Of a stretch of DNA of 64,000 nt, positions 38,662 to 42,836 are shown piece after piece (the first letter of the stretch is position 1; each line of letters starts with the position of its first letter). Both the position numbers and the translations under genes were made by a program. Below the pieces are notes generated by a model. It was not told the origin of the DNA. It did no database searches and saw nothing but the letters and a program-made list of their open reading frames with translations. The stretch spans positions 62,001 to 126,000 of the forward strand of contig NZ_JAMZMI010000002.1 in NCBI RefSeq assembly GCF_024714475.1, written 5' to 3'. The stretch comes from Marinoscillum sp. MHG1-6. GTDB taxonomy: Bacteria; Bacteroidota; Bacteroidia; Cytophagales; Cyclobacteriaceae.

Positions 38662-38718
38662 AGGCCTGCTTGCTAGACCAGTAAAACTAATTAAAGAATT
38701 GAATAGGTAAGCATCACC

Positions 38719-39420
38719 TTACTTCCACGATTCAATCGCACTTTTTAGCCCGGTACAAATCAATTTGATCAGCAACTGATTATTCCCGGAAAGATGCTTC
38801 TGATTAATTTCCAATTCAATTCCCAGATAACTCTCCTCCGGCCAAATGGTTCTCAAGGTTGTAGTAAAACCGTCATCAGCCCCGTTGTATGGCTCATTCA
38901 TCCGAATATTAAATGCAGGAGATTGAGTCAATATGGCATTTCCCCATTTTTTGCAGAAGGCTGTTTCCTCGATTCTCACCTCATCATAGAGTAATCCAAT
39001 ATCTACTTCACGCTCCTTTCCCTCCCATACTGGTGTGAAACTATGGACGGAAATATGGACCACGGAATGCCTCTCATCAACCAATGAATCAATTTGGTTT
39101 CTCACTCGCTCTCGATAGACGTTATAATATTCTTCAACCAAAACAGTCTTTATTTCTGGAGGCAAATGACCAGTAAATTCTGAAAAAAGCTGTGGATGGC
39201 CGATCGAGCGATTTACCTCAATGAGCAAACGCGAGTAATCATAATGATGGCACTCAACACCAAAGTAGTCAGACATTTTCTCTGCAACCAAGAGCGCACC
39301 AATATCCCAACCTCGATGAGAACTCAGCTCCTTTTCGGCTGTTTCAAAATACGGTTCAAACCTCTCAGGCACATAATTTCCAGCGTGCTCACAAGTGATG
39401 ATTAAGGATCGCCGTTTCAT
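38719..39420 (-). CDS. N-formylglutamate amidohydrolase-family protein
   Basis: 233 residues of the zinc-dependent FGase family (related to HutG-2). Metal and substrate motifs: TCEHAGNYVPERF at the N-terminus, HRGWDIGA, YSRLLIEVNRS, VHISVHSFTP and IELEINQ. Genuine HutG acts in histidine breakdown, but no hut genes are here; instead its ATG overlaps the end of the GCS2-like ligase gene (ATGA), so it most likely hydrolyses an amide or acyl-glutamate-like bond in the product of this cluster. Last of the four coupled genes. Confidence 0.88.
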   Translation of the reverse strand: MKRRSLIITCEHAGNYVPERFEPYFETAEKELSSHRGWDIGALLVAEKMSDYFGVECHHYDYSRLLIEVNRSIGHPQLFSEFTGHLPPEIKTVLVEEYYNVYRERVRNQIDSLVDERHSVVHISVHSFTPVWEGKEREVDIGLLYDEVRIEETAFCKKWGNAILTQSPAFNIRMNEPYNGADDGFTTTLRTIWPEESYLGIELEINQKHLSGNNQLLIKLICTGLKSAIESWK

Positions 39421-40658
39421 GGAACAAACAAAGAATTCGTTTGAAGGCAGCCGGATAGCTTTTTATACACAGCATGTAACTCTTCCCTTGAGAAATCTCC
39501 ATTCAATGATTTTATTATTCTTTCAGCTAAGGTTCCATGATTCACGATACTTCTGAGCACATCGCTCCAGGGCTGCATCCATGACGGATAAGCTTCCATG
39601 GTGCGATCAATTAAGTCCAACCATACAGTGTGGGCCTTCTGATGATTTGTATAACCTAATGCCTTAAGGTATTCGGGATCAGAAATAATGGCGTCAGAAC
39701 CATTCTTAACGCATTCTTTAAAAACATGATAGAGTTCCGAGGTTCCATGAGCCTGTTGAACATCAAATGATATCCATTTTCCAGCAACCAGGATTTTCAA
39801 AACCGCAACGACTAAAGCCACAATGGCCAAATCTCCTTTGGGACATTCCTGAATATCGATGACACGAATCTCTATTGCTCCCCTATCGAATCTAGCAATC
39901 GCTCCCCGACTGTTGAGCCATATTGGATCAAGCAAGCCCCCGGAGTTGTATGGCTCAATAGCACTGGCGATTTTATCGTAAACACGCTTTTGATAGCCGT
40001 GCTTCGTAAATATCCTTTCCGGAATTACCTTCCCAGTGATTGCAGGAATCCTTGCTTGATTGAGCTCATAATAATACAGTCTTCGATCTTGATAGCCTGT
40101 ATACTTCCCATTTAGAATTGGTGAAGAGGCAGTTAAGGCAGGTATCAGAGGCATTATAAACCTTATAGCCGTATGAAGTTTTGAAAACTCTTCATCATCA
40201 TAAAACGGCAAGTTGATATGGGTGCTCTGGAGGTTGGACCACCCATGTCCTTTGCAATTAAAAATTCGATCATAAACCTCGTAAATCTCACCACTTTCAT
40301 GAGGCCAGAGTGTTGTTTCCTTCGAAGGATTCATCCAGGGATGTGCAGCAGTGGGTAATAACCTGGCTCCCTGTGTACCTAGCTGCTCATTAATACAAAC
40401 CACATTTTCATGAAAAGCATTACTCAAAGCCATCAAATCCGCCTTTGGCCCGTTTGATTTTAGCTCAATGACGTGGCTCACCAATTCGTTACTCCAGGCA
40501 ATATCACCATGCTCGATCTCACCCTGAATCATACCCTCTGCACCTCTAAGCAACACTTCAGCCAGAGGCGTCACATTTAAAGAATCGTCCTTGACGATCA
40601 TATACTCAAGCTCAACCCCAAATGCTTCAAAAAGGTGGAGCCTTGTTTTCGTTGCCAT
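39417..40658 (-). CDS. GCS2-type glutamate--cysteine ligase homologue (amidoligase)
   Basis: 413 residues of the carboxylate-amine ligase group that includes YbdK. The fold is glutamine-synthetase-like: FGVELEYMIV at the N-terminus provides metal-binding Glu residues, ELKSNGP, the segment STHINLPF, and RGAIEIRVIDIQECP near residue 270 with further acidic/basic site residues. The reaction expected is ATP-dependent joining of a glutamate-like gamma-carboxyl to an amine. There is no gshB-like gene here; the partner is the ATP-grasp ligase immediately upstream (two bases). Its stop overlaps the FGase start. Substrates are unknown. Confidence 0.87.
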   Translation of the reverse strand: MATKTRLHLFEAFGVELEYMIVKDDSLNVTPLAEVLLRGAEGMIQGEIEHGDIAWSNELVSHVIELKSNGPKADLMALSNAFHENVVCINEQLGTQGARLLPTAAHPWMNPSKETTLWPHESGEIYEVYDRIFNCKGHGWSNLQSTHINLPFYDDEEFSKLHTAIRFIMPLIPALTASSPILNGKYTGYQDRRLYYYELNQARIPAITGKVIPERIFTKHGYQKRVYDKIASAIEPYNSGGLLDPIWLNSRGAIARFDRGAIEIRVIDIQECPKGDLAIVALVVAVLKILVAGKWISFDVQQAHGTSELYHVFKECVKNGSDAIISDPEYLKALGYTNHQKAHTVWLDLIDRTMEAYPSWMQPWSDVLRSIVNHGTLAERIIKSLNGDFSREELHAVYKKLSGCLQTNSLFVP

Positions 40659-40660
40659 AG

Positions 40661-42109
40661 TCAGACCAAACGATTCATAAATTCCTGCATTACCTGCACA
40701 TATAGTTGCTGCTTCAACACCAGATCCTCTACACCTTCATCCAGGTTCGGATTATCATTGATTTCAATGATGTAGTATTTCTTACCATGCTGTTTGATAT
40801 CAACTCCATACAGCCCATTGCCTATTAATGCTGTTGCCTTAACCGCCAAATCCAGCAATGCTCTTGGAGCCTCCGCGATATCAAGTGTGGCGGTGTCCCC
40901 CTCTTCCATACCCCCGGAACCTTTCCAATTCATTATCTGCCAATGATCCGGCGCCATGAAGTATTTACAGACATAAAGTGGTTTGTTATTCAGAATCCCT
41001 ACCCTCCAGTCAAAGTCAGTCGGGATAAATTCCTGGGCAATCACCAACTCCGAGGTTTGAAAAAAGTCCTTCAATACCTCCACCAGTTCAGCTTCATTCT
41101 TAGCTTTTTTTACTCCCTTGCTAAACGATCCATCTGGTTGTTTCAGGATAATTGGATACTCCAGATTCGAAAACTTCATTTGGCTTATCCTATCCTTTTT
41201 AATGATCCAATATTGAGGTGTAGGCACCTGGTGGGCCCGCAGCAACTCACTCAGGTACACCTTGTTAGTACATTTCAAAATTGAATCGGGATCATCCATC
41301 ACGACCAGGCCTTCTGAAGCAGCCTTTTTAGCAAACTTGAAAGTGTGATGATTAACATTTGTTGTCTCTCTTATAAATAAGGCATCATACTGGATAATCT
41401 TGGCGAAGTCGTTTTTTGTTATCAGGTCAACATTGAACCCTACCTTTTCACCCGCCTTCACGAAATTTTGGATGGCCTTCTTATTGGAAGGAGGCGTAGT
41501 TTCTTCCGGGTTCACCAAAATGGCCAGATCATATTTCTTTCTATTATACTGTTTATTTAACCTGTTTTTTCCTAGCAAATACTCATTAAGCGCATTTTTC
41601 AAGAACTCCTGAGCATCATCAGGAAACTCATTGAGGTTTAGTGGCTTAAGGTTGGTCAGTATCCATTTATCCTTTTTTAAGAATACCGCTTTCATAATGG
41701 GTACCTGAAACAGGTTGAAAATCAACGTGCCTATTTTATTCAGTTCAGGCTGATGTGCCTTTCCAAAGCAGATAAACAGGTCCAGGCGATCTTCCCTTTG
41801 TTTTTTTAGTCCCTGCTGGATCACCTCATCAAAATCCTCTGCATCCTCCTTTACAATGGAAGGAAACCTAAAATCCTGTAGCGTCGCGATCTCGGGCATC
41901 ACCTTATGTCTGCGAGCCTCCGCAAGTAGCGAAACATAGTATCCAAGGCTTTGGTATTGATAGCTCTTACACAAATTGATCACCTTGTACTTTCTCGATC
42001 TTTGAAAAGACTCTTCAGAGAAATACTGAGCCGGGGTGATAATCTCGACATCCTGAATGGCACTTTGCCACTCCTCTGGTGTGTCAGTTATGATTAGTTT
42101 GGATGACAT
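40661..42109 (-). CDS. RimK-type ATP-grasp ligase with N-terminal RLAN-like domain
   Basis: 482 residues from the ATG at 42109; a longer reading frame to 42142 would overlap the upstream gene by 59 bases. Residues 1-150 resemble the RimK-like ATP-grasp N-terminal (RLAN) domain, including VINLCKSYQYQSLGYYVSLLAEARRH. The C-terminal ATP-grasp (about 250-480) has the phosphate loop KQPDGSFSKGV, VIAQEFIPTDFDWRVGI and the Mg-binding EINDNPNLDEG. RimK-like enzymes ligate an amino acid, often glutamate, to a carboxylate. It overlaps the C39-like peptidase gene by 26 bases, so they are translationally coupled. Confidence 0.88.
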   Translation of the reverse strand: MSSKLIITDTPEEWQSAIQDVEIITPAQYFSEESFQRSRKYKVINLCKSYQYQSLGYYVSLLAEARRHKVMPEIATLQDFRFPSIVKEDAEDFDEVIQQGLKKQREDRLDLFICFGKAHQPELNKIGTLIFNLFQVPIMKAVFLKKDKWILTNLKPLNLNEFPDDAQEFLKNALNEYLLGKNRLNKQYNRKKYDLAILVNPEETTPPSNKKAIQNFVKAGEKVGFNVDLITKNDFAKIIQYDALFIRETTNVNHHTFKFAKKAASEGLVVMDDPDSILKCTNKVYLSELLRAHQVPTPQYWIIKKDRISQMKFSNLEYPIILKQPDGSFSKGVKKAKNEAELVEVLKDFFQTSELVIAQEFIPTDFDWRVGILNNKPLYVCKYFMAPDHWQIMNWKGSGGMEEGDTATLDIAEAPRALLDLAVKATALIGNGLYGVDIKQHGKKYYIIEINDNPNLDEGVEDLVLKQQLYVQVMQEFMNRLV

Positions 42110-42827
42110 TTTTTGGTTTAATGACGAGCAGGTTGGCATCATAAGTCACAATCCCAAGCAGGATCGAATTGATTAACCTCCTCAAGGTAATCTGGTAGTG
42201 ATGTGTATCACTAATTGGATTGGTATCCAAAGGATCGGCAATATTGGCTATACGCTTGGCCTGATCATATCCATGAACAACTACAAAATGTCCCGCCGGG
42301 GTGCCACGGATATCATCATATTGATTTGTTTCGCCAATCTCTCTGGCACAATCATATAGATAGGTAGCACTAAGGCCGGTAAGCAACGGAGTTCCTTCAT
42401 TGAGGATCTTCCTGATCAGGTGGGTGCTTAACTCCTCAAATTTGATAGATCCGCCTAAAGAAAGAAAATTCAAATAAGCATTGGCTGCCTGTCTAAATTT
42501 CCTGGATGATTTGAACGCCTTTTGCTCCTCAAGTTTTGATTTCAGATCTACTCCTGAATTAAACCAGGTCGGATCGAACATCATCAAATTGTAAGTATAC
42601 AGCGTAGCATCATAGCCTCGGGACAGGGCATGATTTCCCAGCATCACCGCAAGAGTCCCGCCCGTTTTCAGGGTTTTGACCTCACGGATAACCTGATCAA
42701 GTGAAATTTGGTCATCGAAATATTGATACACTGCCTGAAGGCAGGTAGGCCCACATGTTTCGTCGTTGGGCTGTGCGTGGATATCCAAACTCAAGGTTTT
42801 GATACCCAACTTATCCGACGTTTTCAA
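42084..42827 (-). CDS. C39-like cysteine peptidase
   Basis: 247 residues, cytoplasmic, no signal peptide. The papain-like triad is visible: Cys25 in NDETCGPTCL (oxyanion Gln19 six residues before), His179 in AGHFVVVHGYD and Asp197 in NIADPLD. No ABC or membrane part is attached, unlike bacteriocin-processing C39 peptidases. The start is TTG: no in-frame ATG precedes the catalytic Cys region and the ndh stop is only nine bases upstream. Leads the set of four genes with the ATP-grasp, GCS2 and FGase enzymes; it may cleave the joined product or a precursor. Confidence 0.82.
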   Translation of the reverse strand: MKTSDKLGIKTLSLDIHAQPNDETCGPTCLQAVYQYFDDQISLDQVIREVKTLKTGGTLAVMLGNHALSRGYDATLYTYNLMMFDPTWFNSGVDLKSKLEEQKAFKSSRKFRQAANAYLNFLSLGGSIKFEELSTHLIRKILNEGTPLLTGLSATYLYDCAREIGETNQYDDIRGTPAGHFVVVHGYDQAKRIANIADPLDTNPISDTHHYQITLRRLINSILLGIVTYDANLLVIKPKNVIQTNHN

Positions 42828-42836
42828 CTTTGTTAG

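Follow-up and report, generated by a model that had tools for sequence, protein, structure and literature searches.

A recurrent cassette of two predicted amide ligases and two predicted amide hydrolases in Marinoscillum, and the exchange of GCS2 and GNAT genes beside its ligase

Enzymes of the GCS2 family activate the gamma-carboxylate of glutamate, and the amine donor of RimK-type ligases is an amino acid, most often glutamate or one of its homologues; RimK, LysX and N-acetylaspartylglutamate (NAAG) synthetase join acyl groups to the alpha-amine of glutamate. Acetyltransferases of the GNAT family acetylate amines, and the FGase family is named for the hydrolysis of N-formyl-glutamate. The RLAN name, as well as the association of amidoligases with peptidases, is said to go back to Iyer et al. 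in 2009. In the pathway to N-acetylglutaminylglutamine amide (NAGGN), the enzyme Ngg links two glutamines, one of which it acetylates (PMC8070244). Here, we analyze a 64,000-nucleotide stretch of Marinoscillum sp. MHG1-6 (contig NZ_JAMZMI010000002.1, positions 62,001 to 126,000; hereafter the window), in which genes for a C39-like hydrolase, an RLAN-ATP-grasp ligase, a GCS2 enzyme and an FGase form one cassette. Among the papers listed by literature searches, a scope that mostly excluded subscription papers, no title or opening of an abstract described this four-gene set or its product, and the terms RLAN, GCS2 and N-formylglutamate did not occur in the text of three surveys of ATP-grasp enzymes and peptide ligases (PMC4431377, PMC2922099, PMC8939145). 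The neighbourhood may already be described in the 2009 work of Iyer et al.; we believe the new part to be the exchange of GCS2 and GNAT beside the ligase.

The cassette and its recurrence

The cassette spans positions 38719-42827 of the window and lies entirely on the minus strand. Its first gene (42084..42827, 247 aa, with a TTG start; PF13529) encodes a C39-like papain-fold cysteine hydrolase, and the second (40661..42109, 482 aa; PF14401 and PF08443) an RLAN domain followed by a RimK-type ATP-grasp amide ligase, the latter comprising residues 193-482. The third (39417..40658, 413 aa; PF04107) encodes a glutamate:amine ligase of a divergent GCS2 subfamily, and the fourth (38719..39420, 233 aa; PF05013) an amide hydrolase of the N-formylglutamate amidohydrolase-like FGase family. 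The overlaps of 26 bases (C39 and RLAN) and 4 bases (GCS2 and FGase), and the 2-base gap between RLAN and GCS2, agree exactly with a preliminary description of this DNA made from the sequence alone, which had proposed four coupled genes. All four products pass the Pfam cut-offs, with 43.8 bits against 24 for PF13529, 149.9 against 25 for PF14401, 44.6 against 21 for PF08443, 94.5 against 21 for PF04107 and 79.6 against 28.9 for PF05013. The genome holds a single family match each for RLAN, GCS2 (PF04107) and FGase (PF05013), all inside the cassette. The ATG at 42109 is where most homologues of the ligase start in the alignment, and a further in-frame ATG lies upstream at 42142.

The closest named relative that we found, Marinoscillum pacificum, has proteins that share 72% (C39), 75% (RLAN), 58% (GCS2) and 44% (FGase) amino acid identity with those of the window. 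Substitutions between the two cassettes were commonest at the third codon position in all four genes, as expected of working genes.

We examined recurrence in an even sample of 395 genomes of the Bacteroidota, the phylum of the window. RLAN (PF14401) was present in 44 of these, in 43 of them above the family cut-off, and in the window's own family was patchy (five of the nine sampled genomes listed). The GCS2 subfamily (profile threshold E <=1e-20) was found in 30 genomes and the C39 subfamily (E <=1e-15) in 27, and every copy found adjoined RLAN; at most four and seven candidates per genome, respectively, were scored, such that a weaker second copy could be missed. All 30 GCS2-bearing genomes had RLAN. 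Hypergeometric probabilities of co-occurrence with RLAN were 1e-34 for GCS2 and 1e-30 for C39, with relatedness ignored. Scattered homologues, which the preliminary description had held up as one of two outcomes that would count against it, were thus not what this survey of gene neighbourhoods returned.

For comparison of neighbourhoods, 187 RLAN loci were assembled, comprising 40 fetched from the Bacteroidota sample, the best 80 named loci of at least 585 relatives, 65 from a Pseudomonadota sample (RLAN in 62 of 349 genomes) and two further loci. Having been taken as the best of the relatives, the 80 named loci lean to the window's type, a lean from which the two phylum samples are free. The 187 include three repeats (L163 coincides with L131, and the ligases are identical within the pairs L037/L106 and L042/L134), and a degenerate RLAN piece without an RLAN open reading frame (ORF; L219, genome G370) enters no count. 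Partner genes were counted up to 2.5 kb from RLAN. Among the fetched loci, the arrangement C39-RLAN-GCS2-FGase is seen repeatedly, with genes mostly overlapping or touching, and the 86 loci with GCS2 include 78 with C39 and 61 with FGase. The RLAN-GCS2 gap fell within -60 to +60 bases in 71 of 86 loci, being exactly -4 or -1 in 47, as did the C39-RLAN gap in 75 of 81 and the GCS2-FGase gap in 51 of 61. Many outliers were large overlaps, probably from ORFs called from a start too far upstream, while others were gaps of 67-267 bases and, in L077, a distance of 1.9 kb between GCS2 and FGase. Because close spacing recurs across loci, chance coupling is excluded.

Of the 80 named loci, 57 are of GCS2 type; by their record titles they are assigned to 16 phyla, many being metagenome-assembled, and they mostly have C39 before and FGase after the ligases; genes kept together across such a range very probably yield a useful product. 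Patristic distances were correlated between RLAN and GCS2 (0.75), C39 and RLAN (0.70), C39 and GCS2 (0.70), and FGase and the others (0.46-0.58), against a permutation maximum of 0.18 (n=999), with L106, L134, L087, L123 and L138 excluded from these correlations and from the conservation counts below. This fits co-inheritance, to which shared species history contributes. A 9 kb plasmid record of Legionella adelaidensis (L221, 41-3232) also has RLAN, GCS2 and FGase in a row, with public annotations.

The four genes are not equally obligatory. C39 was missing from three of the 30 GCS2-bearing genomes (G198, G226 and G355, of one family, all with FGase), and FGase from beside nine of the 29 fetched sample GCS2 loci; an FGase profile that recovered its target in 10 of 10 positive-control genomes had no match in those nine whole genomes. 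The RLAN and GCS2 ligases are therefore the core, and each hydrolase is dispensable. The earlier proposal of a dedicated unit of two amide-forming and two amide-cleaving families is borne out by recurrence, close spacing and co-occurrence, with the amendment that membership of the hydrolases varies, and the four genes almost certainly form one pathway.

Exchange of GCS2 and GNAT beside the ligase

Across the 187 loci, the ligase was accompanied by GCS2 in 86, by GNAT in 93, by neither in eight, and by both in none. The proportions differed by source, with 29 GCS2 and 11 GNAT among the 40 Bacteroidota sample loci; 57 GCS2, 17 GNAT and six with neither among the 80 named loci; and 63 GNAT, no GCS2 and two with neither among the 65 Pseudomonadota loci, the two further loci both being GNAT. 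Counted GNAT matches scored at least 124 bits, and the nearest thing to an exception was a GCS2 locus (L089) with a GNAT-like match of 38.8 bits 2.0 kb from RLAN; no other GCS2-type ligase had one closer than 6 kb. Four of the eight loci with neither partner have a ready account, in that the genomes of L084 and L136 carry GCS2 elsewhere and L124 and L188 lie at contig ends.

The GNAT domain took three forms, namely fused before RLAN, fused before a C39-like DUF3335 domain in an adjacent gene, or as a separate smaller gene. GNAT loci had no GCS2, FGase or window-type C39 beside the ligase, and 56 of the 93 had a DUF3335-type C39 relative. All 61 FGase genes in the 120 loci of the Bacteroidota sample and the named set were in GCS2 loci, and whole-genome profile searches found no FGase in 12 GNAT-fusion genomes. 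Likewise, the GCS2 subfamily was absent from four GNAT-type genomes searched and from the GNAT-type genomes of the phylum sample. The Ngg model TIGR03103 had no match at E 1e-5 in two GNAT-RLAN fusions (L137, L059) or in a GNAT-type ligase (L103), and the GNAT part of the acetyltransferase-C39 protein of L103 reached 24.6 bits where the cut-off is 569.

On the ligase tree, the GCS2 and GNAT states needed three changes in both the 121-row IQ-TREE and the 186-row FastTree reconstruction, the latter without L163 and L218 (a short ORF). Two GNAT clades were nested among GCS2 rows, one of Bacteroidota fusions with L090 and the other of Nevskiaceae-type loci, and a single genus (g132) contained one genome of each type. 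Such exclusive exchange is as expected if both partners perform equivalent steps for the same ligase, and the simplest equivalence would be two ways of blocking the amine of the same residue. We think that the GNAT alternative, which the preliminary description did not include, is the strongest clue to the chemistry.

A plasmid record of Pseudomonas aeruginosa (L220, 4911-6500), in which the gene order looks chromosomal, has an RLAN ligase beside pagP and a glutamate/aspartate transporter set, with no GNAT or GCS2 neighbour annotated. From the gene order next to pagP, we take this ligase to be PA1345. A study of the Cpx envelope-stress system (PMC12802237) lists PA1345 in a table under the name 'Hypothetical ATP-binding protein'. 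As to the physiological role of the RLAN gene, the link to envelope stress is a lead only.

The four proteins and neighbouring genes

In the ligase, D437, K439, E449, N451, N453 and R369 were each kept in 98% or more of the 52 rows compared. The structure model (mean predicted local distance difference test, pLDDT, 90.3; predicted template modelling score, pTM, 0.64) matched ArgX, LysX and RimK over residues 193-482 with Z 26-28 across ~260-270 residues, and the same part was nearest to LysX, ArgX and RimK by sequence as well. Scores lay below the NCBIfam cut-offs for rimK_fam (83.5 against 143.4) and LysX_arch (74.8 against 275.6), and the Ngg model TIGR03103 was not among the best 25 of 46 families. 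Positions invariant in the RLAN domain, for example Y29, N45, Y52, Y57, Y58, S60, R66 and H68, were common to GCS2-type and GNAT-type rows, which suggests that the domain probably serves chemistry shared by the two forms.

The GCS2 protein retained E16, E18, E65, H147 and E263 in at least 98% of the 52 rows and R265 in 94-98%, residues that we take, from general knowledge of the family and a weak alignment to YbdK, to be catalytic (metal and phosphate). It fell well short of the cut-off in every glutamate-cysteine ligase model listed, namely TIGR02050 of the YbdK group (48.7 against 176.4), cyanobacterial GshA (34.4 against 249.05) and EgtA (18.6 against 370.8). By model score it is thus no ordinary gamma-glutamylcysteine ligase, the other outcome that would have counted against the preliminary description. 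Against solved structures, the only plausible relative of its profile was YbdK, weakly (E 0.07); the best match, a designed helical bundle at E 0.021, was taken as chance.

The C39-like protein stands alone, without fusion to an ABC transporter, and has PF13529 as its best family and PF03412 as its second. Its catalytic triad was conserved at each position in at least 98% of the 52 rows; Cys25 had been named correctly in the preliminary description, while the residues given there as His179 and Asp197 are H180 and D198 when counted from the TTG start. The structure model (pLDDT 92.5) was equally close to the C39 peptidase of a peptidase-containing ATP-binding transporter (PCAT; Z 16.1, 136 residues aligned) and to the glutathione acyl-enzyme of the phytochelatin synthase Alr0975 (Z 16.1, 165 aligned). 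The phytochelatin synthase family PF05023 was not matched at E 0.05 among the families listed. The FGase profile matched PDB entry 2odf at 1.1e-34, with the CEHA, NR, HSF and GIL stretches aligned.

Three other functions were considered for these proteins and set aside. Histidine degradation was rejected on the failure of the FGase to reach the HutG model TIGR02017 (17.3 against 278.75), other hut genes not having been searched. A ribosomally synthesized and post-translationally modified peptide with a C39 leader peptidase was rejected on the absence of an ABC transporter fusion and on the overlaps and 2-base gap, which leave no room for a precursor gene between the cassette genes, neighbours of fewer than 70 residues in other loci not having been examined. 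For anti-phage defence, the only indication was one weak Csn2 match (E 0.004), taken as chance.

Immediately upstream on the same strand, beyond 9 bases (42828-42836), is a gene for an NDH-2 type dehydrogenase, and 57 bases downstream (38662-38718 between), also on the same strand, is a gene for a PAS histidine kinase. We rejected both as conserved flanking partners, as neither adjoins the cassette of M. pacificum; nor were they recognised among the 25 commonest neighbour families, which are unannotated, of the 40 Bacteroidota sample loci. Downstream of the M. pacificum cassette, at 1.8 kb, is an aspartoacylase/succinylglutamate desuccinylase-type gene (L072, 7431-8363).

A DUF155 (RMND1-like) gene was near RLAN in 23 distinct loci, nine of GCS2 type (4 kb off in L100), 13 of GNAT type and one with the DUF3335 part only, two weak matches (L121 and L130; E ~1e-11) being uncounted. 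Gene orders varied, some operonic and some convergent, with DUF155 upstream of C39 in L061, L064, L066, L077, L079, L080 and L081 and in line with the RLAN system in L131, L173, L179, L180, L182, L187, L188 and L214. As an obligatory fifth gene DUF155 was rejected, since it was found in 18 of the 395 genomes and in five of the 44 RLAN genomes (Fisher p 0.04), leaving 39 of the 44 without a match; the DUF155 gene of the window's genome (G000:C20:28855-29358) is on a different contig from the cassette. Adjacency to both types of RLAN system is a possible clue to the role of the DUF155/RMND1 family. Finally, a DUF2817 gene (L179, 9282-10415, by Pfam) and its relatives in 13 other Pseudomonadota loci lie near GNAT-type RLAN genes in what looks like one clade; a further hydrolase close to the system and mere synteny are both possible explanations.

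A candidate pathway, its rivals and known systems

We tentatively favour, at somewhat under an even chance, a cytoplasmic pathway that would make and recycle a small gamma-glutamate-capped dipeptide by the logic of GshA and GshB. GCS2 would form gamma-Glu-X by linking glutamate, through its gamma-carboxylate, to the amine of some amino acid X. With its amine blocked in this way, X would then be coupled through its carboxylate to the alpha-amine of another amino acid Y, probably acidic, by the RLAN-ATP-grasp ligase, giving gamma-Glu-X-Y. The C39 protein would act at the X-Y bond by way of a gamma-Glu-X acyl-enzyme, in the manner of primitive phytochelatin synthase on glutathione, and the FGase would hydrolyze an amide next to glutamate, such that the two together would trim the product or recycle it. 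In lineages with GNAT, that enzyme would supply an acetyl cap (N-acetyl-X) in place of the gamma-glutamyl group. The exchange of partners, combined with the enzyme chemistries outlined at the outset, makes capping first and ligating second the economical model.

Several observations weigh against this pathway. Each hydrolase can be missing, and the recycling step is thus not universal. The exclusivity of GCS2 and GNAT partly follows lineage, given the 63 of 65 GNAT loci in the Pseudomonadota sample, and four loci with neither partner (L098, L114, L128 and L154) lack an explanation, GNAT elsewhere in those genomes not having been searched. Moreover, the exclusivity is between gene families, and GNAT and GCS2 could serve separate pathways that have only the ligase in common. 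The nested GNAT clades are also without C39 beside the ligase, and C39 may serve GCS2 chemistry rather than a shared X-Y bond. No role is assigned to the RLAN domain (residues 1-190), of which the fold search covered very little. Additionally, the fold tie of the C39 model expresses no preference. When ranked by Foldseek E-value, PeiR, a pseudomurein endoisopeptidase, and C39 peptidases came ahead of Alr0975, which appeared from rank 16 on, and function does not follow from a common fold.

The alternative that survives best, although we consider it unlikely, reverses the order, such that the RLAN ligase would first make an N-acyl-glutamate from glutamate and an acid or amino acid, GCS2 would then close or extend its free gamma-carboxylate, and the FGase would be the matching hydrolase. 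The resemblance of the ATP-grasp part to LysX, ArgX and RimK is consistent with this, as are the namesake activity of the FGase family, the match to 2odf and the confinement of FGase to GCS2 loci in the set of 120. It sits less well with the replacement of GCS2 by GNAT, often fused directly before RLAN, which is simpler as an N-terminal cap made first, and with the nine sampled GCS2 loci that are devoid of FGase.

It is improbable that the cassette modifies a protein, with the RLAN-ATP-grasp ligase adding residues as RimK does on ribosomal protein S6, GCS2 or a RimI-like GNAT making a further modification, and the two hydrolases, C39 and FGase, erasing them. The mitochondrial RMND1 relative is linked to translation, and the recurrence of a DUF155/RMND1-like neighbour in some lineages points this way, as do the RimK-like ligase and rimI being the best acetyltransferase model in three GNAT-bearing proteins scanned. 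Furthermore, RimK has a partner protease, RimB, that acts as its eraser (PMC12239564). Yet all of the rimI scores were under the curated cut-off, and besides DUF155 no neighbour family recurred beyond apparent within-clade synteny. The patchy presence of RLAN, in 44 of 395 genomes, also argues against protein modification; to our knowledge, core ribosome modifiers are not patchy.

Scavenging or detoxification, in which the ligases would attach glutamate to an amine or amino acid taken up from outside, for holding or degrading, and C39 and FGase would release the glutamate, has about the same low probability, or slightly less. The presence of two hydrolases in one gene cluster and the patchiness within the window's own family would suit it, as would MFS-like neighbours, found by clustering in L034/L044/L054 and L104/L113 and confirmed by Pfam in L041 and L113, but none of the genes found widely next to the cassette is a transporter, dehydrogenase or regulator. 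Lastly, ordinary glutathione-like thiol synthesis, the bare logic of which a GCS2 enzyme plus an ATP-grasp ligase does reproduce, is very improbable and a thiol is not the expected product, since GCS2 falls so far below the glutamate-cysteine ligase models and the genome encodes BshC (G000:C11:342994-344505), making bacillithiol the likely low-molecular-weight thiol; no gshB search was made, and cysteine could still be a substrate.

If the capped-dipeptide pathway is considered beyond the window, RLAN ligases may represent a widespread, unnamed class of enzymes for intracellular capped dipeptides, with one ligase core and interchangeable gamma-glutamyl and acetyl N-caps swapped several times, an extension that we regard as possible and more speculative than the pathway itself. 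The window's cassette would then be the gamma-glutamyl branch, with its own recycling arm of papain-fold protein and FGase, and its product might serve in stress or osmotic balance, with a reach comparable to that of glutathione or NAGGN. The exchange predicts the same core with a different cap, and could give a function to RLAN, DUF3335, the GCS2 subfamily of the window, and possibly DUF155/RMND1.

Among described systems, the NAGGN pathway of Pseudomonas and Sinorhizobium (Ngg, AsnO and a peptidase) resembles the GNAT form in having an acetyltransferase and a peptide ligase in one protein or adjacent, whereas the window has GCS2 and not GNAT. Glutathione synthesis by GshA and GshB likewise combines a GCS-family enzyme with an ATP-grasp ligase, but the window's GCS2 fails the glutamate-cysteine ligase models and its ligase is of the RLAN/RimK type. 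RimK with RimB, and LysX and ArgX, share the ATP-grasp part and differ from the window's ligase in lacking the extra RLAN domain, in their partners and in the sub-cut-off scores. Unlike the C39 peptidases of bacteriocin leaders, which are fused to an ABC transporter, the window's C39 protein stands alone; its model ties in fold with the phytochelatin synthase Alr0975 as well as with C39 peptidases, and no PF05023 match was listed for it.

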